Shown here: positions 27,404 to 55,257 of the stretch, in pieces | Layout of the letters: the number at the start of each line of letters is the position of its first letter | Position numbering within the stretch: position 1 is the first letter of the stretch | Assembly (NCBI RefSeq): GCF_003815975.1 | Contig: NZ_CP033932.1 | Span: 1,550,001-1,614,000 of the forward strand | DNA from: Chryseobacterium bernardetii | Lineage (GTDB): Bacteria; Bacteroidota; Bacteroidia; Flavobacteriales; Weeksellaceae | Reading direction: 5' to 3' | Length of the DNA: 64,000 nt | Position numbers and translations under genes: made by a program | The notes under the pieces: model-generated | The model's input: only the letters and a program-made list of their open reading frames with translations | The model's database searches: none | Told to the model about the DNA's origin: nothing

Positions 27404-30343
27404 ATGAATGTTAAACTACGTGTACTAAGTGCAGGGGCATTGTTCTTTTTGGGACAGGCTTCTTTTGCACAAAAAGCAAAAGATACAGCCACTACTAAAA
27501 TCGATGAGGTTGTTGTTGTAGCTTTTGGTAAGCAAAAAAGAGAGGCTCTTGTAGGGTCTGTTTCCGTTGTTGATAAAAAAGTACTTGAAACTCAACAGCT
27601 GACATCTGTTACTTCAGCTATCCAAGGAAGTGTACCTGGGGTTCAGTTGATTAGTTCTGGCGGCCAGCCTGGAGAGAATCCACTGATTAAAATTAGAGGT
27701 ACAGCATCTATCAACGCTTCTACTAACCCTTTAATTATTCTTGATGGAGTTCCATTTAATGGAAACATTAACTCTATTAGCCAAGATCAAGTAGAATCTA
27801 TCAACGTGCTTAAAGATGCTTCTTCAACTTCATTATATGGTTCTAGAGGGGCAAACGGAGTTATTCTAATTAATACAAAAAAAGGTAGAAAGAATCAAGC
27901 TCCTCGTCTAGAGTTTTCAGCTCAAACAGGATTTTCTTCTCCTGCTGTAAACATGTATAAATTTGTTGATGCAGGAAATTATCTTGAATTGTATTGGGAA
28001 GCTTTAAGAAATTCTAGAATTAAAGTCGGTGATGCGCCTAATGTAGCTGCTACCTATGCTACAAATAACCTAATTCCAACTCTAGGATATAACCCTTATG
28101 GTACTGGGAATCCTGTTGGACTTGATGGAAAAATTGTACCTGGATCTCAATTGTTATGGAATACAGATTGGGAAAAAGAAATTTTGAACAGGTCATCTGT
28201 GAGAAATGATTACAAATTAACATTACAAGGAGGTAGTGAGAACACAACTTATTTCTTTTCTACAGATTATCTAGATCAAGAAGGCTCGGTTGTAAGTTCA
28301 TATTTTAAAAGATTTACAACAAGACTTAACTTAGAGTCTCAAGTGATGAGTTGGTTGAAAGCAGGTGTTAATACATCTTTTGCTGTATCTTCACAAAATT
28401 ATCCTACACAGTCAGGTAATTCATTTACATCAGCTATCCAATGGATTTATAACGTAGCTCCGATTTATCCTGTCTATAGAAGAGATCAGACCGGACATTT
28501 AATGCTTGATAGCAATGGTGCGCCTATATATGATTATGGAGCAAATGGAAATGGGCTGAATGAAAATAGGCCTGTTTTCAATAATGAAAATGTACCAGGT
28601 GTATTTTTCAATAATAAAATTAATAATAAGAGATATGATCTGAACCTATCAGGGTATCTTGAAGCTGAAATCTTTAAAGGATTAAAAAATAAATTATTGG
28701 TTGGATATCAAATGTATACATTTGATGGTTATCAATATAATAACAGTTTGTATGGAGCTGCTGCTAATGTAAGCGGTAGGGTAAGTACAAATAGAGATAT
28801 TACACAGACAATTAACGTTTCGAATATCTTAAATTATCAGAAATCATTTGGAGATCATAATTTCAATGTAGATGGTATTTTTGAAGCTTATCAGCTTGAC
28901 TATTCTCCAATTGGTACACAATCCACAGGATTTTTACCAAACGTATTTTATCATTCCGGCTCAACAAAACCAGAAAGTGTTTCAGGAAACTTATCCAAAG
29001 ATAGAATTGTTTCTGTTTTAGGAAGATTTGCTTATAACTATCAAAATAAATATTTCTTAGAAGCATCATATAGAAAAGATGGTTCTTCAAGGTTCTCCGC
29101 AGATACAAGATGGGGTGATTATTATTCAATTGGAGGTTCTTGGGTTGTATCAAAAGAAAATTTCTTTAAGAATGATATTGTTAGTTATTTAAAATTCAGA
29201 GGTTCTTATGGTGAGTTAGGAAATAATGGTACGCTAAACGCCCAAAATGCCGCCAACTCTGAGGGTACGATTTCTTCTGAATACTTTCCTTATGTAAATG
29301 GATATAACACAGGATATTCTAACCTGGATCAGGCGGGAATATATATGGTAAATACTAGATATCCGAGACTAACATGGGAGACGACGTCTTCATTAAATAT
29401 TGGAACTGATTTTGAACTGTTTAAAAGAGTAAATGTAACAATTGATTATTATAAAAAGCAATCAATTGATTTGTTATATCCTAAACCACTTTCACCATCA
29501 ACAGGATTTTCATCTATTCTCCTTAACACTGGGAAAATTGAAAACTATGGTTGGGAATTTGGAATTAATTCAACAAACATTCGAAATGAAAACTTTACCT
29601 GGACCACTAATCTTAACTTTTCATTTGATAAAAATAAAATCAAAGAATTGGAAGGAGGAAATTTCGTAAGTGGAACAAAGAGATGGGAAGTGGGAAGAAG
29701 CTTATATGATTTTTGGATTCAGGACTATGCAGGTGTTGACCCTAATGATGGATATATGATGTGGTATAAAGATGTTAAGGATACTAATGGAAATATAACA
29801 GGAAAAACAACAACTAAAGTATACGGAGAGGCAACAAGATACTTCAGTGAAAAAAGTGCATTACCAGATATTCAAGGAGGTTTCTCAAACTATTTTAAAT
29901 ATAAATCATTTGATTTGAATTTCTTATTTAATTTTAGTTTTGGATCATATATCTTAGATACTCAATACGCTAATTTACTTGTTGCAGATAGCCCAGGAAG
30001 ACAAATATCAGCAGATATTGATGGGAGGTGGAAAAACCCAGGTGATATTACTGATATTCCTGTTCTTACTTCTACACAAAATGATTTTAGTAGTACCTCA
30101 AGTAGATGGTTATTTAAAAATGATTATATAAGATTAAAGGCTCTTACGATAGGATATAATTTCCCTCGTAAACATGTGGAACAGTTAGGAATAAGTGATT
30201 TTAGATTATATGTTCAAGCAGATAATCTTTGGACATGGCAGTCTCATAAAGGGATTGATCCAGAACAGTCTTTTGCTGGTACTGTGAATAATAGATCATA
30301 TAACCTTAGAACTATTTCTTTCGGATTTAAACTTGGGTTCTAA
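27404..30343 (+). CDS. SusC/RagA-family TonB-linked outer membrane transporter
   Basis: This 979-residue protein has a signal peptide (1-22, ending ASFAQ) and a TonB-box-like IDEVVVVAFG (33-42) almost at the mature N-terminus. The plug follows, with TSVTSAIQGSVPGVQLI, GQPGENPLIKIRGTASINAS and PLIILDGVPFNGNI, then SINVLKDASSTSLYGSRGANG. A beta-barrel runs to the C-terminal FGFKLGF. The carboxypeptidase-like N-terminal extension found in many SusC proteins is absent. With the SusD partner 21 bp downstream it should form an energised importer for an oligomeric nutrient. The substrate is not evident, as no catabolic enzyme lies beside it. Confidence 0.94.
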   Translation: MNVKLRVLSAGALFFLGQASFAQKAKDTATTKIDEVVVVAFGKQKREALVGSVSVVDKKVLETQQLTSVTSAIQGSVPGVQLISSGGQPGENPLIKIRGTASINASTNPLIILDGVPFNGNINSISQDQVESINVLKDASSTSLYGSRGANGVILINTKKGRKNQAPRLEFSAQTGFSSPAVNMYKFVDAGNYLELYWEALRNSRIKVGDAPNVAATYATNNLIPTLGYNPYGTGNPVGLDGKIVPGSQLLWNTDWEKEILNRSSVRNDYKLTLQGGSENTTYFFSTDYLDQEGSVVSSYFKRFTTRLNLESQVMSWLKAGVNTSFAVSSQNYPTQSGNSFTSAIQWIYNVAPIYPVYRRDQTGHLMLDSNGAPIYDYGANGNGLNENRPVFNNENVPGVFFNNKINNKRYDLNLSGYLEAEIFKGLKNKLLVGYQMYTFDGYQYNNSLYGAAANVSGRVSTNRDITQTINVSNILNYQKSFGDHNFNVDGIFEAYQLDYSPIGTQSTGFLPNVFYHSGSTKPESVSGNLSKDRIVSVLGRFAYNYQNKYFLEASYRKDGSSRFSADTRWGDYYSIGGSWVVSKENFFKNDIVSYLKFRGSYGELGNNGTLNAQNAANSEGTISSEYFPYVNGYNTGYSNLDQAGIYMVNTRYPRLTWETTSSLNIGTDFELFKRVNVTIDYYKKQSIDLLYPKPLSPSTGFSSILLNTGKIENYGWEFGINSTNIRNENFTWTTNLNFSFDKNKIKELEGGNFVSGTKRWEVGRSLYDFWIQDYAGVDPNDGYMMWYKDVKDTNGNITGKTTTKVYGEATRYFSEKSALPDIQGGFSNYFKYKSFDLNFLFNFSFGSYILDTQYANLLVADSPGRQISADIDGRWKNPGDITDIPVLTSTQNDFSSTSSRWLFKNDYIRLKALTIGYNFPRKHVEQLGISDFRLYVQADNLWTWQSHKGIDPEQSFAGTVNNRSYNLRTISFGFKLGF

Positions 30344-30364
30344 TTTTTCTAAATTTAATTAACA

Positions 30365-31780
30365 ATGAAAAAAATAATATTAATAATAGGTGTTGTAGCT
30401 TCTTCTTTGGGAATGACAGGTTGTTCAAATGACTTTTTGGATAATCCAACAGCTACAGATCTGGTTAGTGAGCAGGTGGCATTTGGTTCTAAGGAAGGTA
30501 TTACCGCTGTTATGGCAGGTATTATCAGACAGTCAAGAGGTCAATATACAAGTGTAGATACGGCAAACTTAGGATCAATTTTCTTTACAAGAAGTTTAAA
30601 AGGTAATGATCTTATTCAATCTAATAATTGGTTTGGAAGTGATTATGAGCAGACTAACAGAGAACCAACTTATAGACGAACTTTATTTAGCTGGCAGTTT
30701 CCTTATGAATTAGCAAGTAGATTTACTCTATTTATTGAAGGAGTAAAGAATAGTAAAGCTGATATGACAGAGGATGAAAGGAATGCATTCTTAGCACAAG
30801 GTTATGCCTATAGAGCATTTCTGTATTTTCAACTAAGTTTAGAATTTCAACAAACTTATACGTTTGATCCTAACTTACCTGCACCTCCAATATATAGAGA
30901 AGGTGGTTCTCTAGAAGGTAGACCAATGTCTACAATGAAAGAGATGTATGAGTTCATTTTATCTGATTTAGATAAAGCTGTAGCTTTAGGTTCTTATGAT
31001 AGAATAGATAAATCTTACATGAATAAAGAAGTAGCTTATGCTCTTCAAGCACAAGTATATCAGGTGATGGGTAATTGGGTAAAGGCTGAGCAAGCTGCTC
31101 ATAATGCCTATGGAGGTAATCCGGCAGCTGTTCTTAATGCTTCTCAGTATGGAAATGGATTCAATGAAATGAATAATACTGATTGGCTTTTTGCATCCCC
31201 ACAAAGTGATGATCAGTCTGCATATTATTATACTGCTATTTTCCCTTTCACAGACTTTACAACAACTGGTTATAGAACAACCTATGTAAATAGTAATTTT
31301 GTTAACTTATTCTCTAATACAGACGTTAGAAAATTGTTTACAAAAATGCCTCAAAATGACTGGAGATCATATACTACAACTAAATTTAAATTTAATTTTG
31401 GTTCTGATGTGCCAATCATTAGATATCCTGAAATGATTTTAATCGAAGCAGAAGCTTTATATAATCAAGGAAAAACTACGGCTGCGCATGATTTATTATT
31501 TACATTGCAAAAGAACCGTGATGCAGCAGCTGTAAAATCAACTAATACGGGATCTGCTTTACTAGAAGAAATTCTTATTGAGAGAAGAAAAGAAATGTAT
31601 GGAGAGAATGGTGTTGAATGGTTTGATGCTAAGCGATTAAGAAGAGGAATTACAAGATCTTCAAATCATAGAATTGTTGTAAATCTTGCACCGGACGATA
31701 AAAGATTTGTATTGAAAGTGCCTCAAGCAGAAATTGATGCTAATCCAAATATTGACGAATCTGTAAATAATGGTAAATAA
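30365..31780 (+). CDS. SusD/RagB-family outer membrane lipoprotein
   Basis: This 471-residue protein has a lipoprotein signal ending MTGC, with Cys20 as the lipidation site. NDFLDNPTATD follows, as in SusD proteins. The helical TPR-like core includes AYRAFLYFQLSLEF (about 149-162), and the C-terminal end carries ILIERRKEMYGENGVEWFDAKR, the conserved SusD block. SusD acts as the surface lid on the SusC barrel and captures the ligand. It is encoded directly after the SusC gene and followed by a strong terminator, so the two make a closed operon. Confidence 0.93.
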   Translation: MKKIILIIGVVASSLGMTGCSNDFLDNPTATDLVSEQVAFGSKEGITAVMAGIIRQSRGQYTSVDTANLGSIFFTRSLKGNDLIQSNNWFGSDYEQTNREPTYRRTLFSWQFPYELASRFTLFIEGVKNSKADMTEDERNAFLAQGYAYRAFLYFQLSLEFQQTYTFDPNLPAPPIYREGGSLEGRPMSTMKEMYEFILSDLDKAVALGSYDRIDKSYMNKEVAYALQAQVYQVMGNWVKAEQAAHNAYGGNPAAVLNASQYGNGFNEMNNTDWLFASPQSDDQSAYYYTAIFPFTDFTTTGYRTTYVNSNFVNLFSNTDVRKLFTKMPQNDWRSYTTTKFKFNFGSDVPIIRYPEMILIEAEALYNQGKTTAAHDLLFTLQKNRDAAAVKSTNTGSALLEEILIERRKEMYGENGVEWFDAKRLRRGITRSSNHRIVVNLAPDDKRFVLKVPQAEIDANPNIDESVNNGK

Positions 31781-41857: not shown

Positions 41858-42054
41858 TGTATAAAATTAAAAAGTTTTTTGGATTTAAAGTCAAAAAGTT
41901 CTGCCAAATAAGAGTTTTTATTCATTGAATTATTAATAATGATATTTGTCATGTTTGAGAAAATGATAATCTCTGTAACTTCTTTTTATAAAGGTTTTTA
42001 GTAAAAATATATGCTAATTTTTGAAAAATTATTATAAAATATCAATAAGTCTAC

Positions 42055-42085
42055 TTGTTTTATAGACTAAAAGTTTATAGCTTTG
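42055..42085 (+). promoter_or_regulatory. Promoter of SAM-riboswitch SusCD operon
   Basis: TTG at 42055-42057, a 20-base spacer and TAGCTTTG at 42078-42085 match the Bacteroidetes promoter pattern. The predicted transcription start, near 42091, is 12 bases before the first stem of the riboswitch, as expected for a riboswitch leader. Confidence 0.65.
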
Positions 42086-42102
42086 CATCCATATTTCGAT
42101 CG

Positions 42103-42197
42103 GCTTATAAAGAAAGATGGAGGGAACTGACCCAATGATATCTTGACAACCTGCATTACGTAAGGTGTTACATTCAGCCTTTAAAGGAAAAATAAGC
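42103..42197 (+). ncRNA. SAM-I (S-box) riboswitch aptamer
   Basis: The 95-base segment aligns by eye with the S-box consensus. P1 pairs GCTTAT (42103-42108) with ATAAGC (42192-42197). The next segment reads aaagaaagatggagggaact, with GGAGGGA and later GACCC forming the upper P2 with the kink-turn GGA/TGA pairs, and AGAT/ATCT forming the lower P2. GACAACC corresponds to the GCAACC strand, and GGTGTTACATTCAGC to the GGUGCUAAUUCCAGC strand. CCTTTAAAGG forms P4. Substitutions at a few consensus positions exist, but the order, spacing and paired stems all fit. It should bind S-adenosylmethionine and turn expression of the downstream SusC/SusD pair off when SAM is plentiful. Confidence 0.86.
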
Positions 42198-42222
42198 ATT
42201 TGGTTTATCGTATTTATCGATG

Positions 42223-42248
42223 CCCTTTGCTGACTTTTCAGTAAAGGG
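42223..42248 (+). promoter_or_regulatory. Riboswitch expression-platform hairpin
   Basis: CCCTTTGCTGA (42223-42233) pairs with TCAGTAAAGGG (42238-42248) around CTTT, with one G-T pair. It lies between the aptamer and the start codon. The CCTTT of its 5' arm (42224-42228) can instead pair with AAAGG of P4 (42183-42187), giving a mutually exclusive fold. The tail after it is only moderately T-rich, so either termination or translational control is possible. Confidence 0.58.
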
Positions 42249-42281
42249 TAAAATTTTAGTATATGGTAAACAAAATTGATT

Positions 42282-45218
42282 ATGATTAGTAAAAATCTAT
42301 TTAGTTCTAAAGTCTGGATTCCACCAGTTGCAGTGTTTTTCCTGGGAATTGTAAGTGTAAACGCACAGAATTCCAAACCGAAAAAAGATACCCTTAAAGA
42401 AAAGGAGATTGATGAAGTAGTTGTGGTAGCCTATGGAAAGGCAAAAAGAAACAGCTATATCGGTTCAGTGGCAACCATTTCCAGCGATAAAATTAATAAT
42501 AGACCTGTAACCAATGTAACAAAAGCATTGGAAGGACAGGTGCCCGGGATTCAGGTTACCGGGGCTTCAGGACAGCCTGGAGCAACTTCTACAATCAGAA
42601 TCAGAGGAGTAGGATCGGTAAGTGCTTCCAGTGAGCCTTTATATGTTGTGGACGGAATTCCTTTTGATGGGAATATCAATGCGATAAGTCCTAACGATAT
42701 AGAATCTATCAGTGTCTTAAAAGATGCTACAGCAAGTGCTCTTTATGGTTCAAGAGGAGCAAACGGAATTATAATTGTTACTACAAAATCCGGTAAAAAA
42801 GGAGAAGCCAGAGTGAATCTGAATATCAGCCAGGGGTTCTCTGGAAGAGCGGTAAAAGATTACGAGCAGGTGAATACGGATCAGTATTTCCAATTGTACT
42901 GGGAAGCAATGAGGAATGGTTACCAGTCCGGCCAGATCAATGCCCAGCAGGCAGCCCAGATGGCAACAGATAATATTATTTCCAACTTAGGAATTAATCC
43001 TTATGGTGTTAATTACCCAAAACCTGTAGGAACAGACGGCAAACTATTACCAGGAGCAAAGGCTTTATGGAATGATGACTGGAGAGATATTTTGCAGAGG
43101 GTTGCTTCCAGAAACCAGGTAGATCTTGATATCAGCGGAGGAAGTGAAAAAAGCAATTATTTCTTCTCATTAGGATATCTGGATGATAAAGGAATGGCTA
43201 TTGAATCAGGCTTTAAAAGATACAATACCAGATTAAAGATCAATTCTGAGGTTAAAAGCTGGCTGAATGTCGGAGCAAATTTAAGTTATACCAACAGTAT
43301 CCAGCAGGCTCCTACTTCTTCGGATTCTAAATCCAGTAATATTATTCAGGCTGCAAGAGCAATTCCTTCTTTCTATCCTTATTATGAAAGAAATCCTGAT
43401 GGTTCTTATGTATTGGATGCTGAAGGAAACAAGGTTTATGATTTTGGAAAATACAGACCTACTGCAGCGCTTCAGAACCAGAATCAGGCAGCCAGTCTAC
43501 CTTTGGATAAAAATGAAAATAAGATCGATAATTTTTCAGGAAAAGGTTTTATGGAATTTACGTTCATTCCTGAATTGAAGTTCAGGTCAAGCTTTTCTAT
43601 TGATGTGGTTAGCTATAATGAACATTATTATACAAATCCACTTCTTGGGCAAGGAAAAGAAACGGGAGGTTCTGTCTCCAAATCCAACAGCAGAACACTT
43701 TCTTATACAACCAGTAATATTTTAACTTACGACAAAAGATTTGGGAAACACCATATTAATGTATTGGGAGGTCAGGAATTTTATAAATATGATTATCAGA
43801 TCATTTCCGGCAGCAGACAAGGCTTTTCACTACCTAACTATTATGAGCCTGATGCAGCATCCCTGTTAGTAAGTTTTGGCGGTAAAAGTGATAAACTGAG
43901 TCTATTAAGTTTCCTTGGAAAAGTTGAATATGATTTTGACAATAAATATTTCTTATCTGCTTCAACAAGAGCAGACAGTTCTTCAAGATTTGCAAAAGAA
44001 AACAGATGGGGTACATTCTGGTCTGTAGGAGGATCCTGGAAGCTTTCAAGTGAAGAGTTTATCAGAAATCTGGATTTTTTCAATCTTTTAACATTGCGTG
44101 CTAGTTACGGAGGTCAGGGGAATGATAAGTTACAGAAGCCAAATGGTTCAGCGCTGTATTATGCTTATCAGGAATTATATAAGGATTTCCCTCTTGCCGG
44201 TGAACCTGGGAAGACATTGGAAAAAGTAGGCACTCCTAATCTGATATGGGAAACTAATCTTAACCTGAATGTAGGGTTAGAGTTTGCAATCCTTAATAAC
44301 AGGATTAAGGGAAATGTTGAGTATTTTGAAAGAAAAAGTAAAGATCTTCTGTTTAATGTACCGGTTGCTCCGTCTTTAGGAATAAGCGACTATCCGGCGA
44401 ACGTTGGAACAATCAAGAATACAGGTTTTGAATTCTCATTATTCACCACCCCTGTAAAAACCAGTGATTTCCAGTGGAATGTTGACATTAACCTGAGTAC
44501 TTTAAATAATAAAATTACAAAACTACCTGGAGGACCGCTTGTGGTAGGAACAACTAAACAGCTGAACCTGGGAGGTTCTGTATACGATTTCTACCTTCAG
44601 GAATGGGCCGGGGTAGACCCAAGTAACGGAAAACCATTATGGAAAACCATTACTAAGGATGCTAACGGAAATATGGTGGAAGGAACCACTTCAGAATATG
44701 CTAAAGCTACAAAGATTTTACAAGGTTCTGCCTTGCCTAAATTAACTGGAGGAGTGAGTACAAGCATCAATTATAAAAACTTTGATTTTTCAGCGTTACT
44801 GACATTTAAAATTGGTGGAAAGATCCTGGATACAGATTATGCTTCCATCCTTCACAGCGGAAACTTAGGCGGACGTGCATGGGGGACAGAAATGCTGAAC
44901 AGATGGACCCCGGAAAATCCTTATACAGATGTTCCTGCTTTAAGCACAAAAACGAATAACTGGACTTCACAGTCTACAAGATTCCTTTATTCAGGAACGT
45001 ATGCAAGACTTAAAAATGTGAGTTTAGGATATACGTTACCTTCTGATTACTTTGAAACGATCGGATTAAAGAAATTCAGAATTTATGTGCAGGCAGAGAA
45101 TCTTCTGACCTTCTATAAACATAAAGGAATGGATCCTGAACAGGCGCTGGACGGAACAACGTACTACAGATATCCGGCAATGAGAACAATCACTTTTGGT
45201 CTTCAGGCAACGTTTTAA
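42282..45218 (+). CDS. SusC/RagA-family TonB-linked transporter, SAM-riboswitch controlled
   Basis: This 978-residue protein starts from ATG at 42282 as MISKNLFSSK; a TTG two codons earlier is open but less likely. The signal peptide ends near SVNAQ and is followed by the TonB-box-like IDEVVVVAYG (43-52). The plug has NVTKALEGQVPGIQVTGASG, STIRIRGVGSVSAS, PLYVVDGIPFDGNI and SISVLKDATASALYGSRGANG. The barrel ends in ITFGLQATF. As in the first copy, the carboxypeptidase-like extension is missing. Control by a SAM-I riboswitch suggests import of methionine, methionine peptides or another sulfur nutrient; this is inference. Confidence 0.93.
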   Translation: MISKNLFSSKVWIPPVAVFFLGIVSVNAQNSKPKKDTLKEKEIDEVVVVAYGKAKRNSYIGSVATISSDKINNRPVTNVTKALEGQVPGIQVTGASGQPGATSTIRIRGVGSVSASSEPLYVVDGIPFDGNINAISPNDIESISVLKDATASALYGSRGANGIIIVTTKSGKKGEARVNLNISQGFSGRAVKDYEQVNTDQYFQLYWEAMRNGYQSGQINAQQAAQMATDNIISNLGINPYGVNYPKPVGTDGKLLPGAKALWNDDWRDILQRVASRNQVDLDISGGSEKSNYFFSLGYLDDKGMAIESGFKRYNTRLKINSEVKSWLNVGANLSYTNSIQQAPTSSDSKSSNIIQAARAIPSFYPYYERNPDGSYVLDAEGNKVYDFGKYRPTAALQNQNQAASLPLDKNENKIDNFSGKGFMEFTFIPELKFRSSFSIDVVSYNEHYYTNPLLGQGKETGGSVSKSNSRTLSYTTSNILTYDKRFGKHHINVLGGQEFYKYDYQIISGSRQGFSLPNYYEPDAASLLVSFGGKSDKLSLLSFLGKVEYDFDNKYFLSASTRADSSSRFAKENRWGTFWSVGGSWKLSSEEFIRNLDFFNLLTLRASYGGQGNDKLQKPNGSALYYAYQELYKDFPLAGEPGKTLEKVGTPNLIWETNLNLNVGLEFAILNNRIKGNVEYFERKSKDLLFNVPVAPSLGISDYPANVGTIKNTGFEFSLFTTPVKTSDFQWNVDINLSTLNNKITKLPGGPLVVGTTKQLNLGGSVYDFYLQEWAGVDPSNGKPLWKTITKDANGNMVEGTTSEYAKATKILQGSALPKLTGGVSTSINYKNFDFSALLTFKIGGKILDTDYASILHSGNLGGRAWGTEMLNRWTPENPYTDVPALSTKTNNWTSQSTRFLYSGTYARLKNVSLGYTLPSDYFETIGLKKFRIYVQAENLLTFYKHKGMDPEQALDGTTYYRYPAMRTITFGLQATF

Positions 45219-45237
45219 CCCTTAACAATTTGAAACA

Positions 45238-46731
45238 ATGAAAAATTTAAAATATTTATCTTTTGCTTTACTAGGATTATGGTCACTCACAAGTTGTGAA
45301 AGTGAGATGGATACTGCTCCTACAGATCAGGCAAACAGTGTTGAGGTTTTCAAAACCGCGGAAAGTGCAGAAACGGTTATTAATGGAACCTGGGCAAAAT
45401 TCAATAATGATGGAACTACATATGCTAATATCGGATATTCAACTGTTTTAAGGGCAAGTGATGCGATGGGAAGCGATGTGGCTGTATTAACCAATAAATA
45501 TGGTTTCTCATCTACTTATGATTTCACGGAAATGGTGAATAACACAGTCGGTCGTCCGTTATTTATCTGGACAATGCTGTATTCCACCATCAATAATATG
45601 AATAATGTTATTGCAAAAATTGATGCTTCGGAAGGTAGCCAGGCAAAAAAGGACCAGGTAAAGGGGCAGGCAAAGGCATTACGTGCTTTCTGTTATCTGA
45701 ATATTGCCAGCTTTTATCAGTTTAGCTATCTTAAAGATAAATCTGCATTAGTTGCGCCAATTTATACGGAACCTTCAACAACAGGCTCTGCTACAAAGAA
45801 AAAATCCAGTCTGGAGGATGTTTATACTTTAATTAAAAGTGATCTTGCAGATGCGGATAATTTGTTAAAGAACTATACAAGAAATAACAAAGATAAAATC
45901 AACCGCAACGTAGTGAACGGTATTTTAGCAAGAGTATATCTGAATACAGGGGAGTGGAGTAAAGCTGCAACAGCTGCAAAAACAGCAAGAGAAGGTTTTG
46001 CATTGATGACTCCGGAAAAGTATAAAGAAGGATTCAATGACATTAATAACGGTGAATGGATCTGGGGACATGCACAGACCCAGGAAATGTCAGATGCAAG
46101 TTATGCTTTCCATTATCTGGATGTATCTTCATCAGGAAGTTATTACTACAGCTTTATGGCTGATCCTTATTTTAAAAAGCTGTTTGATTCCAATGATATC
46201 AGATCTCAATTATTCTCATGGGATGGCCTTCCGGGAAGAGAAGGATTGTTGAGATATGCTAAGTTCAAATTTAAGTCTACTCTTATTGCAGATATTGTGT
46301 ATATGAGAGCGGCTGAAATGTACCTGATTGAGGCAGAATCAGAAGCAAGAAATGGAAATGTAACCCAGGCGGTAACTGTTTTGAATCAATTGAGAGCTGC
46401 CAGAAATGCAGATGCTTATACAGGATCATTAGCACAGAATGATGTGGTAAAGGAAATCTTAATTGAAAGAAGAAAAGAATTGTTTGGAGAAGGATTCTCG
46501 CTTTCAGATATTATTAGAACGCAGGGAACAGTAGAAAGAAAACCGTTTACAGATGCGGAAGGAAAGCCAATCAAAGTTCAGATAACAACCCCTAACGGAA
46601 CTGTAAAAACCGTTGATGGGAAAGGTCACACCGTGTTTGATTTTCCGAACAAGACTCCGTTTGTACCGAATAGCCCCTATTATTTATTCAGTATTCCACT
46701 GAAAGAGATTGAAAATAATCCCAATTTATAA
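45238..46731 (+). CDS. SusD/RagB-family outer membrane lipoprotein
   Basis: This 497-residue protein has a lipoprotein signal, MKNLKYLSFALLGLWSLTSC, with Cys20. TAPTDQANSVEVFKTAESAE is the usual SusD N-terminus. TPR-like helices include KGQAKALRAFCYLNIASFYQ, and the C-terminal block has ILIERRKELFGEGFSLSDIIR. It pairs with the SusC gene 19 bp upstream and shares the SAM-riboswitch leader. It would serve as the ligand-binding surface subunit. The operon ends at the terminator 46761-46786. Confidence 0.93.
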   Translation: MKNLKYLSFALLGLWSLTSCESEMDTAPTDQANSVEVFKTAESAETVINGTWAKFNNDGTTYANIGYSTVLRASDAMGSDVAVLTNKYGFSSTYDFTEMVNNTVGRPLFIWTMLYSTINNMNNVIAKIDASEGSQAKKDQVKGQAKALRAFCYLNIASFYQFSYLKDKSALVAPIYTEPSTTGSATKKKSSLEDVYTLIKSDLADADNLLKNYTRNNKDKINRNVVNGILARVYLNTGEWSKAATAAKTAREGFALMTPEKYKEGFNDINNGEWIWGHAQTQEMSDASYAFHYLDVSSSGSYYYSFMADPYFKKLFDSNDIRSQLFSWDGLPGREGLLRYAKFKFKSTLIADIVYMRAAEMYLIEAESEARNGNVTQAVTVLNQLRAARNADAYTGSLAQNDVVKEILIERRKELFGEGFSLSDIIRTQGTVERKPFTDAEGKPIKVQITTPNGTVKTVDGKGHTVFDFPNKTPFVPNSPYYLFSIPLKEIENNPNL

Positions 46732-47936: not shown

Positions 47937-48497
47937 CTACTGTAAAACTATTTTAATGTAATTGGATTTAATAGAATGAGGGTATAGTGAAATACTATTT
48001 TTAAAGTTTATAATACCCTCATTTATAAATTGAGCATTATAAGTTACTCTGAATTGTGCGACTTTTCCCTTATATTTATTATCAACTAAATAATAATTCT
48101 GATTTTTGTCATAAGTAGATTTATCCTTTTCTAAAAAAATAAGCAAAGGAAAAGTAAAGCTATAAGACTCATTTGGGTTTAGAATAATAAAATTACTTTT
48201 TACTTTTTCATAATCAATAGGATAATTATGATTTTGTTCCACAGTAATATTTTTGATTTTGTACATTTTTTGCTTCAATAAGGTAATGTTTTCAATATCG
48301 TAAACATTATTAAAAGTTGTATTTGTAGTTTCATCATATTGGTATAATAAAACTTTTTCTTTGCATCTACTTGTAAATTTTAAATATATATTGTCGGTTT
48401 TATCCTTATTAATAGTTAGGTAAACACAATTTGACTGTGAGAAAATAACAGCAAACTGAAAAAACAATAGTAATAATAATAATTTTTTAGTATCCAT
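47937..48497 (-). CDS. Secreted protein overlapping RHS gene, candidate immunity protein
   Basis: This 186-residue protein has a signal peptide of the form MDTKKLLLLLLFFQFAVIFS. The mature part contains mostly beta-like segments, such as YLKFTSRCKEKVLLYQYD and NESYSFTFPLLIFLEK. Three cysteines are seen, one soon after the cleavage site. I do not recognise a family. The start codon lies within the last codons of the RHS gene (11-bp overlap), so translation is coupled to it. That position is the classic one for an immunity gene of a polymorphic toxin, and a periplasmic immunity protein would make sense if the toxin acts in the envelope. The role is inference from position only. Confidence 0.75.
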   Translation of the reverse strand: MDTKKLLLLLLFFQFAVIFSQSNCVYLTINKDKTDNIYLKFTSRCKEKVLLYQYDETTNTTFNNVYDIENITLLKQKMYKIKNITVEQNHNYPIDYEKVKSNFIILNPNESYSFTFPLLIFLEKDKSTYDKNQNYYLVDNKYKGKVAQFRVTYNAQFINEGIINFKNSISLYPHSIKSNYIKIVLQ

Positions 48498-51400
48498 TTC
48501 TTTTAAGCCAATCTTGATATTGTTGTTGTTGAATTATATCCCCGGCCCTATATCCACTTTCATATGCTCTTTTTTCCATTAGACGGGTTGTTTCGCGCTT
48601 ACCAAATTTTGTAAGATTTCTCTTAAAATAGCCACTCATATAATCAATAGCATGGGTGAATTCGTGAACAAAAGTTCCTGCCAGATTAAGATATGACGTA
48701 AAAGCTTCCTTAAATATGGTAATTTGAGTTACTGTTGTTTTAACTTCTGTTTTGATAAGCTTCCCTGCTTGTATAAATTTAGTTTTATCTGTTTTATATG
48801 CGATTTGGGCTTTAGTTTCATCACCAGAACTACCACCATCCTTAATAGGAATATTTCCTGTCTTTTTTGCTAAATTATTAATTGTTCTTAACTTTTTCAT
48901 TGTTGCTACTTCAGCATCAAAATTAGAATAATCGGGAACAGCATTAGGATTTAATCCAATTTTTTCCATGTCATCCACTAAATTATCTGTAGTTGGAGAT
49001 TTATGAGCAAGATAATTAAAAGCAGTAACCATCAACCCTTGTCCAGCACCCATCCAGAAGTTTCCACCTCCAAGTACAGACCCTATGCCACCGCTTACGG
49101 CTCCATTAAACAATGCAAAGCCATCACTTCTTAATATATTATTGGCCCCTAAGTTATCTGTAGCCATACCTAACAAATCACCCGAAATACTGGCAAAAGC
49201 TCCACTTAGTGCTCCTCCCCAAAAGTTCCCTCCTTGCACAGTGGAAAAAATACCTTGCGTAAGGGCATGTGCTCCTGCTCTGGCTACAATGGTTCCCCAT
49301 TTGCCAAGGGTTTCTGCTACAGAAGCTATTTTAAATACATCCCCTATTGCTCCTGCTATTCCGGCACTTGCATATGACATGGCAAGACCTCCTACAAAAC
49401 GTGCTCCGTTAAACGGAGTCTGTGTATAATACATAGTAAAAAACTCTGAGACTACAGCTGCTATGATAGGGACAAACCAGACAAACTCTCCATTCGGATC
49501 ATTATACATCAATGGATTGTTAAATACATACCCATATTTATTGTAGTTCTGGGTATTGAATATGTCCTGAATATTCTCATCTGCATTTAAGAATCTTCTT
49601 AATAGCGGATCGTATAATCTACCGTTCATATGAATAATCCCCACTTCTGCAAAATATTCATGACTGGTATACCCACGATCTATTAATAAAGAAGAGTTAT
49701 TAATGATATTCTTATCCGTAATAATAGCTCCATTCCCTATCTGTAAATGCGTGAAGTTACCCCATGCATCAAAATGTCTCTGTTCTAATTTATTTCCGAC
49801 TTCATCACTGATGGCTAAGATACTTCCTATATAATCTTTATGCAAGAATTTATAAGAACCGCTGTTCTCTGTAAAGTCCTTTAAATATACAATATTTGAT
49901 TCATATGGTATTCCACCTATATAAATGATATGTTTTTCTTTTCCGGTAGTATTGTCTTTTACGATTTCATAGCTTCCGTCTTCACTATAATATTTGGTAA
50001 ACTTTCCTTCTCCGTCTGTACTGAAAATACCTCCATAGGTAACTCTTTGTCTCATGCTGGTCAAGCCATACTGGAAGGCTACATCTCCTTTTTCTCCATC
50101 GATGAATACAGGATCGTTGTTTTCATTGTAAGCAATGCTTTGAATTAGATCATTGTTATAATTTTGTGTTCCGGCAGCATTTAATGTCATACCCGTTGGT
50201 TGGTAGATTTTGGTGGAATTCTCATACTTCATTGTTCCCACTTGGTCATTCTCCATAATCCTGCCTTTAACATCATAGACGTTTCGGTTTGCAGAAGGTT
50301 TAATACCTGTTACAGGATTCGTCCAGTTAACAAGTCTATTATTATCATCATAATCAAATGATTCTGCAATATTGAAATCACCTCCGGTTGTTCTGCTTTT
50401 TAGTTCATTTTTAATCCCATCAAATGAATATAAAAGTTGCAGAATACCTGGCTTAGTAGCTGATGAATGGTTGACACTCATTAAGAAACCACTCGTATCA
50501 TAAGTGTTATTTATATCTGCTGCTCCTAATTTGGCTTTCAATGCCTGACCTCTGGCATTGGTCTCTTTTAGCTCCCACAGAACTTTCCCTGAATTTTTAT
50601 CCTTCACCTGGCTGAGTTCACCATTCCAGACATTGTACACATTTTCTATTTGTACTTTAGTTAAAGTACCGGAAGAATACAGTTGTTTTTCATAGGATAT
50701 TACCCTTGCTTTATCATCATAAGTTATCCCTTTCTGTATAAAATACTTACCATTGCTACTTTCAGATGCAGATAGTAGTCTTCCTTGTGGATCATAGAAA
50801 ACATTATTACTATATGCCTGTCCTTTAGAAGTTCCTGACTTGGTAATAACCCTCCCTTTATCATCATAAGTAAAAGAAATCGTCTTATTGGTTGCCTGCC
50901 CACCGTCGGTAGTGGAAAGTTCTTTTTGAGAGATCAGCTGTCCCAGATTATTATAAGTGTATTCCTTCGTTCCTTTCGGACTGATGATCTTCTTAGGCTG
51001 TCCAAAACCATCATATTCATATTTATAAATACCATTGGAAGGATCATTAAATTCTGATTTTCTTCCCCATGAATTATATTGGGTGGTAACAATATTTTCG
51101 GCATATTGTGCTTTGATTTGTTCTCCGGCAGCATTATAGGAAAACTGGATTGTTCCTCCCTTATCTATAGTTGATACTATGTTTCCTAATGCATCTGCTA
51201 TTTTAGAAGTTGTCCTTTGATAGCCGTTAAGTTCCTTAATGGTTGTTATTAAGCCGGTAACGGTAGTTTCTATTTTTTTACCTAGAAAGGAATGTATTGT
51301 CCCACCCAAGTCAAACGAGTTAACAAGTGATATAGATGTTATTTTAGCAGGGAATACCGTATCATCATATCTCAATGCATTCCACAGGCTTGGATATTGA

Positions 51401-54400
51401 CCATCAAAATAAGGTTCACTTTCGAATGTTTTTCTACCTAATATATCATACCAAGTATCCCGAGAAACAAACTGGCCTTGCCCAAACGCTTTGGTAGATG
51501 TTCTATATTCCTGCTCAAACCTGTTGGTGAATCTCTTGGAAATATCACCATCTGGATCGTACTGGGTAACAATAATGTTGGAGCCATTATCCCTTTCGTA
51601 CTGGTAGGTGGTTGTCCCTGCCAGATTGGTCTTAGAAGTGAGGAGTTTACCCCAATGATCATAAGTATTGCTAAGAGTATTTCCCAAAGGATCTGTCTGC
51701 TTCTCAATCTGGCCCTGATCATTATAGCTAATATTAGTTTCCAGTCCTAAATTATCCGTTTTCTTGACTGCAAACCTTCCTTTTGGATCATATTCTGTTT
51801 TTAAGGTCTGTGTTTGGGAATCTACACTATTGCTGGTTACTTTTTGGGTGATATTTCCAAAACCATCATATTCGTAGGTTTCCTGTAAATAGCCTGTATT
51901 ATCTCTGTTCCATGTTTTTAACGTTTTTAAAAGATTATTTTCATAAGTGTATTCTTCCTTGGCTGATTTGGTATCCCCATAGGCCTGTACAATATCGGTT
52001 TTGATTTTCGGTTTTCCAATGCTGTAGTTATTTCCGGGAGTAATATTAGGTGGATAGTATTCTAGCTCTGATCTAATAATAGAAAAGCCATCGTTAATGT
52101 TTGTTACAGACTTTTTAGGAAGATATAAATTGTCATATTCTTCAACAATATGGACTGTCTTTACACTTTTCAGAAAGTCTTTGGATATAGTAACATAAGG
52201 GTTGACTGCAAGAACAATTTTAGGTTTATCAGCATCTGTAACTGTTGTCACTACATTCCCGTTGAGAAGCTTGTCTATTTTGTATTGATATTGTTTAAAT
52301 GACAATAACTGCGTATTGTCTAAAGAAATATCATTCGGAAATATTTTCGTTTCGTCCGTAGTTCTTATAGACCAATTTTTATAGGGTAATCCTTCGTTAA
52401 TAGGGTTTATTTCGGAGCCACTCCAGATTTTTGTATTCTCAAAACCACTGGCATAGAATGTTGATCTGGCTGTTTGTCTGAATCCTATAATTCCCTTTCC
52501 ATGTAAATTCCCTATCAAATCTCTGTACCTAAACTCCTGTCTTCTTTGATCTTGAATTAATTTCGAAACTACATAATGATTAACATTTTCTTTAATACTA
52601 ACATAAGGGTAACTTACAGTATTAATATCTAAATAAGATTTATAAATATTCCCTTCATTAACCAAAGATGAATATTCTATATCTGTTTTTACACCTCCTT
52701 GTGTTATAGATTTAATCCTTGCCATCTTATCTAACTTATTTCCTAAGTCCCATGTGATAAGCTTGGTTTTATGAATAATAGCAAAATCAGTGTTAAGTTG
52801 AGGTAGTCGGAAGTTCCCTATGAGTGGTAAAAAATGTTCACCATAATTAGAATAGTTAATGTCTTCCCCATTTTGATCTCCCCATGCCGTTTCTTCTTTT
52901 GAGGCCAGATCATAAGCGACTGTAAATATAGGCTTACCTGTAGTGTCAACACCATCATTTCTGAAATAAACAAATCCATAACTAGAGTCCTTATTGTTAA
53001 TTGCCCATTCTCTAAACCATACTTCAGATTGGAATTGAAGAAAATCACTTTTCCCATCTTTATTAAAATCAGGAGCAAAGTAATTTTTTATTGTATTTCT
53101 TCGTTTAGTAGGTTTTCCGTCATGCTTTGGTTTATAAAGTGATAAATTTGAATAATAATATTCTACAATACCTTTACCTGTTGAAATAAACATTTTCCAA
53201 TCTGATGAGTCTTCTGCTACTGGAGACATTACATCAGTTTTTCCATCACCGTTAAAATCTCCTAGTAATGCTACTCCTTTAACAGAGATCTGAGCAGGTG
53301 ATTGTGCTTTTAAATCAAATTCCTTTGTGACAGGATTTAGAGAGTAGATTTTAGTCCCGTCTTTCAATCCAAATAAATCTGTTTTTCCATCACCATCAAA
53401 ATCACCTAACGGTATTGGTTTATAGTAAAAAGACGAAATAAATGTATACTGCCCCATATTAGTAGTATAATCCGTTAGTGGATTGTCTCTCTTTTTTAGT
53501 GTTCCTTGTAATGGGTCAAGATAAAATTCAAACACTTCACTTCCAAGATTTGCAGTTCCTTGTAATTCGGGATAGCCGTTCCAGTCCTGTCCCCAAATTT
53601 CTTCATATACGTCTTTTAATGTAGTAATAATAAATTCAGAAATACCATCTCCATTGAAATCTCCTTCAAGAAACTTTAAATCACTAAGCATATAGCCTAT
53701 TGGCCCATGTTGAGTTCCTTGATAGCCTGTTAGATCTGAAAACCCAAATGAAGAAAAATCAAATTGCTTTAACATGATTTCGTCAACTCCGGATCCATTA
53801 AAATTATAGGCTCTAAGATTTAATTTATAGGTTGGTCCAAAAACCCATTCATAAGTAAAGAATGTATCGTTCGACGGCATTACTCCATTACTTTTAGGAT
53901 AATTGCCACGAGTTACAACCGTTCCTGTATAATTAATATTTACAAAATTTCCTGAACCATCAAGCCTGCCTAGCATTAATGTATTTCCTTTAATAAAATC
54001 TAATTTTCCATCACCATTAAAATCTCCTGAGACAACATTGTCTCCATATATTTCGTCAAACCTGGAATTTTGATTGAAAGTATTTGATGATTGAGGAGAT
54101 GATTCATTTTCAAAGACTATAGGATTAGCAGCTTCATTATTAGCATTATATTCTGTTACCTTATTAACAAATTTATATTTTGTATCATTATTAACATAGT
54201 CAATTATATATCTTTTAAACTGACTTCCATTTGAGTTTACTTTAATTTCCGATAAAATTTTACTTTGTGTATGTTTCAATCCCTGAACATAGGATTCTTC
54301 TATTAACCCTCTATCATTATAGATGAACTCAATTAAGTTAAAATGAGGTTTATTTAATATTTCATTTCCTCCCCATTCTATTTTTGATATTCGTATGACA

Positions 54401-55257
54401 CGACTTGGACTTCTGAACCCATATCCCCCTGTATCAGGATCAGATTCATAATTATAGCTAATGTAATTTCCTTGCGCGTCTTTCCATTTTACAATATTGT
54501 ATTCTAAAGGGGTTGTTACTATAATACTTCCTCTAAATCCACCTTCGTTTTTACCATACCAGGCTTGTGATCCATCTTCAAAAGTTACTTCAAAATGTGC
54601 AGGACCAGCATCTTGCCCGTTGATGTTGTAGGTTCCTACGGATTTTATTCTAATATTAGAGTACTTTTCTATAACATATTCTGCTCCATCTTTCCCATAT
54701 TCGCCAGATTTAAGAATTAATCTTTGGCCATTGAAGCTATAATAATCAGAATAGTCCAATTGTATTCCTTTTACCTCTCCATCTTTTTCAATGTTCTTGC
54801 CAACCCTTGAGATTGTCGTAACCCCGGAAAGATTCCAAGAATATCCTGCAATCCCATTAGAAGAACCGCTGGTATACACTAAATTAACCTGAGGCGCTAC
54901 ACTTTTAACTCCCGGCGGTAAAGCAATAGGCAAAGTAAACTGCAATTGTCCTGCTCCATTTACTTCTATATTCCCTTTAGTATCATGGAAACTTTTTCCA
55001 ACCGGAGCTGTTGTTCCTGATGGGTTAGTTGCCCCTGCTCCTGAATCCACAGGTCCGCCTCCCGGATTCTCCGTAGCCGGACCAATCTTTGCCAAAAACG
55101 AATTGGAAGCATCCGATTTAGCATGAAATCCTTGTGACATAATCACCGTCTGTGGATCCTGAACGGTACGGGATGTGGTTTCGGGCTGATACAGTATGGT
55201 CTGTGAAAAGCCCAATACCGAACACAAGGATAATATCAATGATGAAAATAATTTCAT
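48487..55257 (-). CDS. SpvB/RHS-repeat protein with C-terminal HExxH domain
   Basis: This 2256-residue secreted protein has a signal peptide MKLFSSLILSLCSVLGFSQ. Residues about 95-185 match the SpvB/TcaC-like N-terminal region: FTLPIALPPGVKSVAPQVNL and SGSSNGIAGYSWNLSG. Between about 410 and 740 are five FG-GAP/VCBS units such as GDFNGDGKLDF and GDFDGDGKTDLFG. From about 1100 to 1850 come YD/RHS repeats with many YDxxG elements. The RHS core ends GRLYDPLLRRFLNADENIQ (near 1875) and NPLMYNDPNGE. A Gly/Ala-rich hydrophobic segment (about 1925-2080) precedes a distinct C-terminal domain with VHEFTHAIDY, His2198 and His2202 being the likely zinc ligands, and a further EKRAYESGY that may give the third. 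The layout fits a polymorphic toxin delivered as a cocoon-like RHS shell with a metallopeptidase tip. Confidence 0.92.
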   Translation of the reverse strand: MKLFSSLILSLCSVLGFSQTILYQPETTSRTVQDPQTVIMSQGFHAKSDASNSFLAKIGPATENPGGGPVDSGAGATNPSGTTAPVGKSFHDTKGNIEVNGAGQLQFTLPIALPPGVKSVAPQVNLVYTSGSSNGIAGYSWNLSGVTTISRVGKNIEKDGEVKGIQLDYSDYYSFNGQRLILKSGEYGKDGAEYVIEKYSNIRIKSVGTYNINGQDAGPAHFEVTFEDGSQAWYGKNEGGFRGSIIVTTPLEYNIVKWKDAQGNYISYNYESDPDTGGYGFRSPSRVIRISKIEWGGNEILNKPHFNLIEFIYNDRGLIEESYVQGLKHTQSKILSEIKVNSNGSQFKRYIIDYVNNDTKYKFVNKVTEYNANNEAANPIVFENESSPQSSNTFNQNSRFDEIYGDNVVSGDFNGDGKLDFIKGNTLMLGRLDGSGNFVNINYTGTVVTRGNYPKSNGVMPSNDTFFTYEWVFGPTYKLNLRAYNFNGSGVDEIMLKQFDFSSFGFSDLTGYQGTQHGPIGYMLSDLKFLEGDFNGDGISEFIITTLKDVYEEIWGQDWNGYPELQGTANLGSEVFEFYLDPLQGTLKKRDNPLTDYTTNMGQYTFISSFYYKPIPLGDFDGDGKTDLFGLKDGTKIYSLNPVTKEFDLKAQSPAQISVKGVALLGDFNGDGKTDVMSPVAEDSSDWKMFISTGKGIVEYYYSNLSLYKPKHDGKPTKRRNTIKNYFAPDFNKDGKSDFLQFQSEVWFREWAINNKDSSYGFVYFRNDGVDTTGKPIFTVAYDLASKEETAWGDQNGEDINYSNYGEHFLPLIGNFRLPQLNTDFAIIHKTKLITWDLGNKLDKMARIKSITQGGVKTDIEYSSLVNEGNIYKSYLDINTVSYPYVSIKENVNHYVVSKLIQDQRRQEFRYRDLIGNLHGKGIIGFRQTARSTFYASGFENTKIWSGSEINPINEGLPYKNWSIRTTDETKIFPNDISLDNTQLLSFKQYQYKIDKLLNGNVVTTVTDADKPKIVLAVNPYVTISKDFLKSVKTVHIVEEYDNLYLPKKSVTNINDGFSIIRSELEYYPPNITPGNNYSIGKPKIKTDIVQAYGDTKSAKEEYTYENNLLKTLKTWNRDNTGYLQETYEYDGFGNITQKVTSNSVDSQTQTLKTEYDPKGRFAVKKTDNLGLETNISYNDQGQIEKQTDPLGNTLSNTYDHWGKLLTSKTNLAGTTTYQYERDNGSNIIVTQYDPDGDISKRFTNRFEQEYRTSTKAFGQGQFVSRDTWYDILGRKTFESEPYFDGQYPSLWNALRYDDTVFPAKITSISLVNSFDLGGTIHSFLGKKIETTVTGLITTIKELNGYQRTTSKIADALGNIVSTIDKGGTIQFSYNAAGEQIKAQYAENIVTTQYNSWGRKSEFNDPSNGIYKYEYDGFGQPKKIISPKGTKEYTYNNLGQLISQKELSTTDGGQATNKTISFTYDDKGRVITKSGTSKGQAYSNNVFYDPQGRLLSASESSNGKYFIQKGITYDDKARVISYEKQLYSSGTLTKVQIENVYNVWNGELSQVKDKNSGKVLWELKETNARGQALKAKLGAADINNTYDTSGFLMSVNHSSATKPGILQLLYSFDGIKNELKSRTTGGDFNIAESFDYDDNNRLVNWTNPVTGIKPSANRNVYDVKGRIMENDQVGTMKYENSTKIYQPTGMTLNAAGTQNYNNDLIQSIAYNENNDPVFIDGEKGDVAFQYGLTSMRQRVTYGGIFSTDGEGKFTKYYSEDGSYEIVKDNTTGKEKHIIYIGGIPYESNIVYLKDFTENSGSYKFLHKDYIGSILAISDEVGNKLEQRHFDAWGNFTHLQIGNGAIITDKNIINNSSLLIDRGYTSHEYFAEVGIIHMNGRLYDPLLRRFLNADENIQDIFNTQNYNKYGYVFNNPLMYNDPNGEFVWFVPIIAAVVSEFFTMYYTQTPFNGARFVGGLAMSYASAGIAGAIGDVFKIASVAETLGKWGTIVARAGAHALTQGIFSTVQGGNFWGGALSGAFASISGDLLGMATDNLGANNILRSDGFALFNGAVSGGIGSVLGGGNFWMGAGQGLMVTAFNYLAHKSPTTDNLVDDMEKIGLNPNAVPDYSNFDAEVATMKKLRTINNLAKKTGNIPIKDGGSSGDETKAQIAYKTDKTKFIQAGKLIKTEVKTTVTQITIFKEAFTSYLNLAGTFVHEFTHAIDYMSGYFKRNLTKFGKRETTRLMEKRAYESGYRAGDIIQQQQYQDWLKRNGY

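Follow-up and report, generated by a model that had tools for sequence, protein, structure and literature searches.

SusC/SusD pairs with no enzyme genes beside them offer no clue to what they import, and a ligand-sensing RNA upstream of such a pair supplies a substrate class that can be tested. One such pair lies in a 64,000-nt stretch (the window) of the Chryseobacterium bernardetii genome, a single contig of 5.32 Mb, where a reading made from the letters alone (the sequence-only reading) had seen a promoter, an S-box aptamer and a SusC/SusD pair in this order, and had taken the pair for an importer of methionine, methionine peptides or a sulfur compound. We asked whether the leader has the anatomy of a SAM-dependent switch, how far it is conserved along with the pair, and what it says about the cargo.

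The susCD pair and its SAM-I leader

The first gene of the pair, susC (42282-45218, + strand), encodes a TonB-linked outer-membrane channel of 978 aa that matches TIGR04056 (773 bits), TIGR04057 and the plug domain PF07715. The TTG at 42276 given by the ORF finder is an unlikely start, and the start was placed at the ATG at 42282 instead. After a spacing of 19 nt follows susD (45238-46731, + strand), which encodes the 497-aa outer-membrane lipoprotein partner, matches PF07980 and PF14322 and is 99% identical to SusD of Chryseobacterium contaminans. With a SusC/RagA match that includes the plug domain and susD next in order, both proteins are placed by family and domain matches in the SusC/SusD family, as the sequence-only reading had it. 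An AlphaFold model of SusD built on 8 sequences had a mean pLDDT of 53.7, too low for use.

The sequence-only reading had seen no neighbouring catabolic genes, and no dedicated catabolic genes were found after susD among 80 named loci. In 57 of them no ORF of at least 100 codons starts within about 650 nt, and the idea of naming the cargo by the gene after susD was dropped; among the remaining 23, 9 share one protein type after susD and 8 share a second N-terminus. Two observations stand apart from this: one relative carries a second, partial susD copy after its S-box susCD (L038:7585-7818, 93.6% over residues 420-497), and the window itself holds at 48487-55257 (- strand) a large surface or secreted protein of 2256 aa with RHS repeats, FG-GAP repeats and an SpvB-type N-terminal domain.

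A covariance search of the leader with RF00162, which the sequence-only reading had proposed as a check, gave a SAM-I match at 42102-42198 (+ strand) in the 64-kb window, with 64.5 bits against a gathering score of 44.4, an E value of 1e-12 and the full model (1-108) covered. Helices P1 to P4 and the pseudoknot between the P2 loop and J3-4 were all found; in the aptamer alignment P1 joins 42103-42108 to 42192-42197, and the pseudoknot joins 42127-42130 (CUGA) to 42174-42177 (UCAG). Among 32 aligned leaders, 96.4% of the cells in P1 to P4 are paired and the pseudoknot is paired in all 32. The helices have few variable positions and their covariation is not above that of shuffles, so the alignment speaks for conservation and not for covariation. 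The pseudoknot letters differ among the three S-boxes of the source genome (CUGA/UCAG, UAGA/UCUA and UUGG/CCAA).

Ahead of the aptamer lies a promoter (42055-42085, + strand) composed of TTG at -33 (42055-42057) and TAGCTTTG at -7 (42078-42085), 23 nt from start to start, which fits the -33/-7 promoter type of Bacteroidota. TTG and TANNTTTG are retained in 27 of 27 leaders of the genus, in agreement with the promoter seen earlier. That reading had also stated that the window's other SusCD pair (27404-31780) lacks such a leader, and a permissive Rfam search (E <= 1, 22000-47500) indeed placed no riboswitch there. To these features we add two that the earlier reading had not named. The first is an exact inverted repeat, AGTCTA-N9-TAGACT (42048-42068, + strand), a candidate operator that lies over the -33 element with exact arms in 27 of 27 Chryseobacterium SusCD leaders. 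The second is an attenuator (42195-42258) behind the aptamer.

The predicted attenuator consists of two overlapping structures. In the antiterminator (42195-42231, + strand), AGCA (42195-42198), which overlaps the 3' strand of P1, pairs with UGCU (42228-42231); further inside, GGU (42202-42204) pairs with GCC (42222-42224) and AUCG (42207-42210) with CGAU (42218-42221). The terminator hairpin (42223-42258, + strand) is formed by CCCUUUGCUGA and UCAGUAAAGGG and is followed by UAAAAUUUUA. Thus the antiterminator is predicted to share AGCA with P1 and UGCU with the terminator, as in the expression platforms of the SAM-I class, and the anatomy is predicted to be of the SAM-OFF type. Across 27 sequences, 98.3% of the antiterminator cells are paired, with two-sided changes in 5 cells, all at one pair; none of 500 shuffles reached 5 cells, and 331 of 500 matched the count of covarying pairs. 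For the terminator, 83.2% of cells are paired in 32 sequences, with two-sided changes in 4 cells (reached by 12 of 500 shuffles) and a covarying-pair count matched by 64 of 500. Between 27 and 32 of the 32 leaders form each of its eight basal pairs, and the loop-proximal pairs are variable.

Folding with RNAfold gave the antiterminator as the best structure before the 3' arm of the terminator exists, both in the window (-9.6 kcal/mol) and in two other leaders, L122 (Elizabethkingia-type) and L126. When the 5' strand of P1 was omitted from L122, the antiterminator was best at every length; for the whole L122 leader P1 and the terminator were best together, with the inner aptamer then non-canonical. 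A fourth leader, L041, had its ends misplaced and was set aside. At full length the terminator rod wins in the window and L126 even without P1, so the choice there would be kinetic and made during transcription. The U-tract after the terminator is weak in the window (UAAAAUUUUA), and a run of 7 U comes after it in all 5 leaders of the Elizabethkingia type.

From this anatomy we infer SAM binding and the direction of control. With SAM plentiful, P1 would close, its 3' strand would be unavailable to UGCU, the terminator would form and susCD would be off; with SAM and methionine short, the antiterminator would form and susCD would be made. The switch might instead act on translation by hiding the susC start, considering that in the window and L126 the terminator hairpin can be extended to a long rod ending near the start codon. 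The predicted L122 fold has no such rod and consists of P1 and the core terminator with 7 U after it, and the overlap of antiterminator and terminator is conserved, which makes control at the start codon improbable next to control by termination.

Conservation of the leader among relatives

The SusD of this pair is encoded (E <= 1e-60) in 27 of the 36 genus genomes searched, the source genome included, and in none of 23 genomes from other families of the order. The sequence-only reading had suggested looking for the same leader before orthologous susC genes, and it is there throughout: all 27 SusD-bearing genus genomes have an S-box in front of susC, and in 56 of 56 further SusD-bearing genomes the leader motif precedes susD by 3085-3195 nt on its strand. 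The search of these 56 allowed 3 mismatches, and SusC itself was read in five Elizabethkingia only. In the family sample SusD was found in 75 of 246 genomes, with one copy cut to 393 residues and one split in two pieces. Together, the 27 genomes with the S-box seen before susC and the 56 with the motif placed relative to susD make 83 of 83 distinct SusD-bearing family genomes (Chryseobacterium and five Elizabethkingia) in which the leader is present.

A scan of named genomes, partly overlapping these 83, gave a similar picture. Among the best 80 of 120 relatives, 77 loci (75 Chryseobacterium, 2 Elizabethkingia) have both the motif (up to 4 edits) and the upstream palindrome (one substitution), and the motif is absent at up to 4 edits from all 3 Sphingobacterium loci. 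RF00162 was over its cut-off in 7 of 7 Chryseobacterium and Elizabethkingia loci tested, with scores of 62.1-67, and in none of the 3 Sphingobacterium SusCD relatives (58-59% identity). The palindrome core occurs in the promoter region of 2 of these 3 Sphingobacterium loci, so palindrome and S-box are separable. The palindrome core is present in 4 of 5 leaders of the Elizabethkingia type.

This conservation bears on whether the aptamer could be a functionless relic, as its score might suggest, the 64.5 bits being lower than the 80.7 and 85 of the other two S-boxes in the source genome. The score is lowered because P3 and P4 are shorter in the model alignment. Retention of the leader in every SusD-bearing genome of the family, with helices and pseudoknot paired across the 32 aligned leaders, makes a relic very improbable.

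The palindrome and the other S-boxes

The exact palindrome occurs four times in the source genome, where about 0.6 copies are expected from the base composition of the window. Besides the copy at the SusC promoter, one separates a 1-Cys peroxiredoxin gene from an MscS-type gene, one is upstream of a second TonB receptor, and one stands 597 nt away from another SusCD, with an ADGF-type deaminase gene on its other side. A version with one mismatch covers the promoter of an S-box-led TonB receptor and APC permease, and another lies 79 nt from a NIL-domain gene whose NIL match falls exactly at the Pfam cut-off. In the 36 genus genomes the exact palindrome was counted 98 times, with matches in 33 genomes, against 22 for the reversed pattern. 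Our first candidate reading of the palindrome was an Rrf2-type cysteine box. A strict pattern, RRTCTAYYNNNNNRRTAGAYY, gave 0 sites in the source genome and was discounted, as it forces purines in the spacer and so misses the Chryseobacterium sites.

Twenty further sites were fetched from those listed, with the SusC and peroxiredoxin sites omitted and a few repeats among them. Half (10 of 20) precede orthologues of the second TonB receptor and 2 precede the other SusC at 582-598 nt; 3 precede a NIL-domain gene (identified by a domain scan in two cases and by likeness in the other), 1 precedes metN-metI, 3 lie inside an aminotransferase/cupin divergent pair and 1 lies before an EamA transporter. 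The NIL domain is found at the C-terminus of MetN, and among the palindrome genes it is those with a NIL domain and metNI that point most strongly to methionine; methionine does not explain the sites at the aminotransferase/cupin, EamA, MscS and deaminase genes.

The metNI site comes from one Chryseobacterium genome (G011), which lacks the SusD of the S-box-led pair and whose MetN is under the NCBIfam cut-off (448.9 vs 499.7) with MetI over it. With 230 nt between it and metN but 97 nt between it and a divergent gene, the site may serve the latter. MetNI resembles the SusCD pair in having the palindrome in its upstream region, but it is an inner-membrane system, no S-box core stands between palindrome and gene, and the divergent gene is closer to the site.

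Several palindrome loci deserve mention in their own right. Orphan NIL-domain proteins of about 100 aa lie some 80-90 nt behind the palindrome at L346:1620-1919 (-), L358:1666-1974 (-), L360:1647-1955 (-), where the domain was assigned by likeness, and L080:1113-1421 (-) in the source genome, where the palindrome has one mismatch; such a free-standing NIL domain might sense methionine. In Chryseobacterium the 1-Cys peroxiredoxin (L129:4710-5345, -) and the MscS-type channel (L129:5443-6330, +) diverge around one exact palindrome. At L128:2402-9216 the exact palindrome is flanked by an adenosine-deaminase-growth-factor-like enzyme and a second SusCD, a locus that could serve the scavenging of nucleoside thioethers such as methylthioadenosine.

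The second S-box of the source genome leads a same-strand run of metX-like, homoserine dehydrogenase-like, O-acylhomoserine sulfhydrylase, metH and metF genes, several of which score under NCBIfam cut-offs; within this run metH is split in two, a desaturase/hydroxylase-like gene separating the pieces (L004:8696-13540, +). Behind the third (L005) come genes for an 822-aa TonB receptor and an APC amino-acid permease, and this S-box-led pair of genes also occurs in 4 fetched loci from two other genera of the family. It shares with the SusCD locus the RNA class and, in the source genome, the palindrome with one mismatch; it differs in that its receptor has no SusD and comes with its own inner-membrane permease.

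We then set these leaders beside a sample of 79 S-box loci, 60 from the phylum and 19 from the family (one filler region dropped), the 60 having been picked from the best-scoring listed matches. The SusCD S-boxes of the Chryseobacterium/Elizabethkingia family score lower than these, and the sample gives no ground for calling S-box-led SusC absent elsewhere. Most of the 79 lead methionine synthesis genes. The SusCD leader has the four helices, the pseudoknot and the overlap of antiterminator and terminator with P1 that mark the SAM-I class, but it precedes an importer and has a palindrome over its promoter. The core TCTA-N9-TAGA, sought within the first 215 nt and located before or at the start of the aptamer, occurs in 6 of 9 S-boxes on transporter, peroxiredoxin or desulfurase-like genes and in 0 of 70 others, which are mostly on methionine synthesis; Fisher's test gives 3e-7, a guide only, given the relatedness of the species, their differences in base composition and a grouping that was made with some sites already in view. 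The core is missing at three of the nine: at a peroxiredoxin, where the full palindrome is matched with two mismatches, at one of the receptor-permease pairs and at a receptor of the Elizabethkingia type. In Chryseobacterium, none of the 21 scorable metX S-boxes has a palindrome match at fewer than 4 mismatches (the 22nd was not scorable), and all 4 scorable receptor S-boxes have one with a single mismatch, with an exact site at a fifth (L112).

Of 395 phylum genomes, 10 contain the combination of palindrome core, 34-64 nt and S-box core, two of these loci being already among the 79, and none contains its reversed form. These loci lead SusC in 6 cases, a 1-Cys peroxiredoxin in 2 and a cysteine-desulfurase-like gene in 2. 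Half of the SusC cases are the SusCD of the Chryseobacterium/Elizabethkingia family, and the other three lie in two other families (G596 in one, G415 and G358 in the other). The SusCs of these three are 25-31% identical to the window SusC over 58-90% of their own length (39-44% in the plug part for G415 and G358), no closer than the SusC paralogues of the source genome, which are 36-40% identical. Their partners diverge as well: the SusD of G596 is 27% identical, that of G358 gave no BLAST match and that of G415 is a PF12771 protein. The 1-Cys peroxiredoxins share 68-69% identity with the palindrome-flanked protein of Chryseobacterium, and the class-V aminotransferases resemble cysteine desulfurase, the one scanned being under the NifS cut-off. 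All seven S-boxes outside the Chryseobacterium/Elizabethkingia family pass the Rfam cut-off.

Two further features were seen at such loci. At one of the two desulfurase-like loci, L342:369-6385 (+), from a genome of the same class as Chryseobacterium, desulfurase-like, SusC-like and susD-looking genes stand in a row behind S-box and palindrome. In other families, the interval from S-box to SusC contains short ORFs (L337, L338 and L329) of about 30 codons that end in FRMCMPVNI, IRMCMELCCSS or FRMRYS; they are possible leader peptides.

The probable cargo and a proposed methionine-uptake regulon

The control anatomy, comprising the aptamer, the attenuator, their linkage to susCD and the shared palindrome, is well supported by sequence comparison. 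Considering that an S-box of the SAM-sensing class and a palindrome common to methionine-linked uptake genes meet at its leader, the SusCD of Chryseobacterium and Elizabethkingia probably imports methionine or a related sulfur compound. Four lines support this reading, which the locus had been given from its sequence: the leader in 83 of 83 SusD-bearing family genomes; the other S-boxes, on methionine synthesis genes and a receptor-permease pair; the palindrome, which is shared with TonB receptors and NIL-domain genes and in one genome lies between metNI and a divergent gene; and S-box plus palindrome on other kinds of SusC in two other families. We infer that a factor binds the palindrome and that the likeliest cargo is methionine, a methionine-rich peptide or a sulfur compound close to it.

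Protein likeness leaves the cargo unsettled. By sequence, the nearest solved relatives of SusC are RagA (382.6 bits) and the SusC homologue 5t3r (380.0 bits), and those of SusD are 3snx and 3lew (402 and 387 bits). RagAB imports peptides; 5t3r is a levan importer. A pair that matches the SusC/RagA and SusD families, with RagA as its closest solved SusC and no dedicated catabolic genes after susD, might be a RagAB-like importer of oligopeptides in general that is turned on by methionine shortage, methionine being the reason for uptake and not the specific cargo. RagA and 5t3r are nearly equal in score, and RagB reaches just 34 bits against SusD, far below 3snx and 3lew; we regard such a general peptide importer as possible but doubtful. 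Within the SusC/SusD family the S-box-led pair is set apart by an RNA of the SAM-sensing class ahead of it and by having no catabolic genes alongside.

The pair might also meet another need that arises under SAM shortage, by importing a sulfonate, glutathione, a methylthio-compound or a corrinoid for MetH. Palindrome and S-box together also stand on the cysteine-desulfurase-like gene and the 1-Cys peroxiredoxin, a range broader than methionine, and MetH is encoded in the metX-led run. Pointing to methionine instead are the palindrome at NIL-domain genes and, in one genome, at metNI, and the S-box on a receptor with an amino-acid permease. For a corrinoid in particular, RF00162 was the sole Rfam match at gathering score in the whole 64-kb window, with no cobalamin riboswitch listed. 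An alternative cargo of this kind is a possible but doubtful reading beside methionine or a close sulfur compound.

We therefore favour, at a rough probability of three in four, a functional SAM-I attenuator on a two-gene importer with the palindrome as a second input, the SusCD pair forming the outer-membrane arm of a methionine-uptake regulon. A candidate transcription factor on AGTCTA-N9-TAGACT over the -33 element would tie susCD to the other methionine-uptake genes. We lean slightly towards a wider form of this, a methionine-scavenging regulon of Bacteroidota with two inputs, in which a candidate factor would read xxTCTA-N9-TAGAxx at the promoter and the SAM-I riboswitch would read the transcript. 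Both would act on the uptake and protection arm, the riboswitch alone on biosynthesis, and SusCDs of several lineages would have been recruited. The doubly controlled set would comprise varied SusCD pairs, the TonB receptor with its permease, 1-Cys peroxiredoxin and cysteine desulfurase.

The palindrome has been brought to light by this analysis, and its factor can now be sought; leader and palindrome together provide a handle for finding more such SusCD pairs in other genomes. These findings suggest that the SusCD machines of Bacteroidota, beyond glycans or general peptides, may serve the uptake of an amino acid or sulfur compound too.
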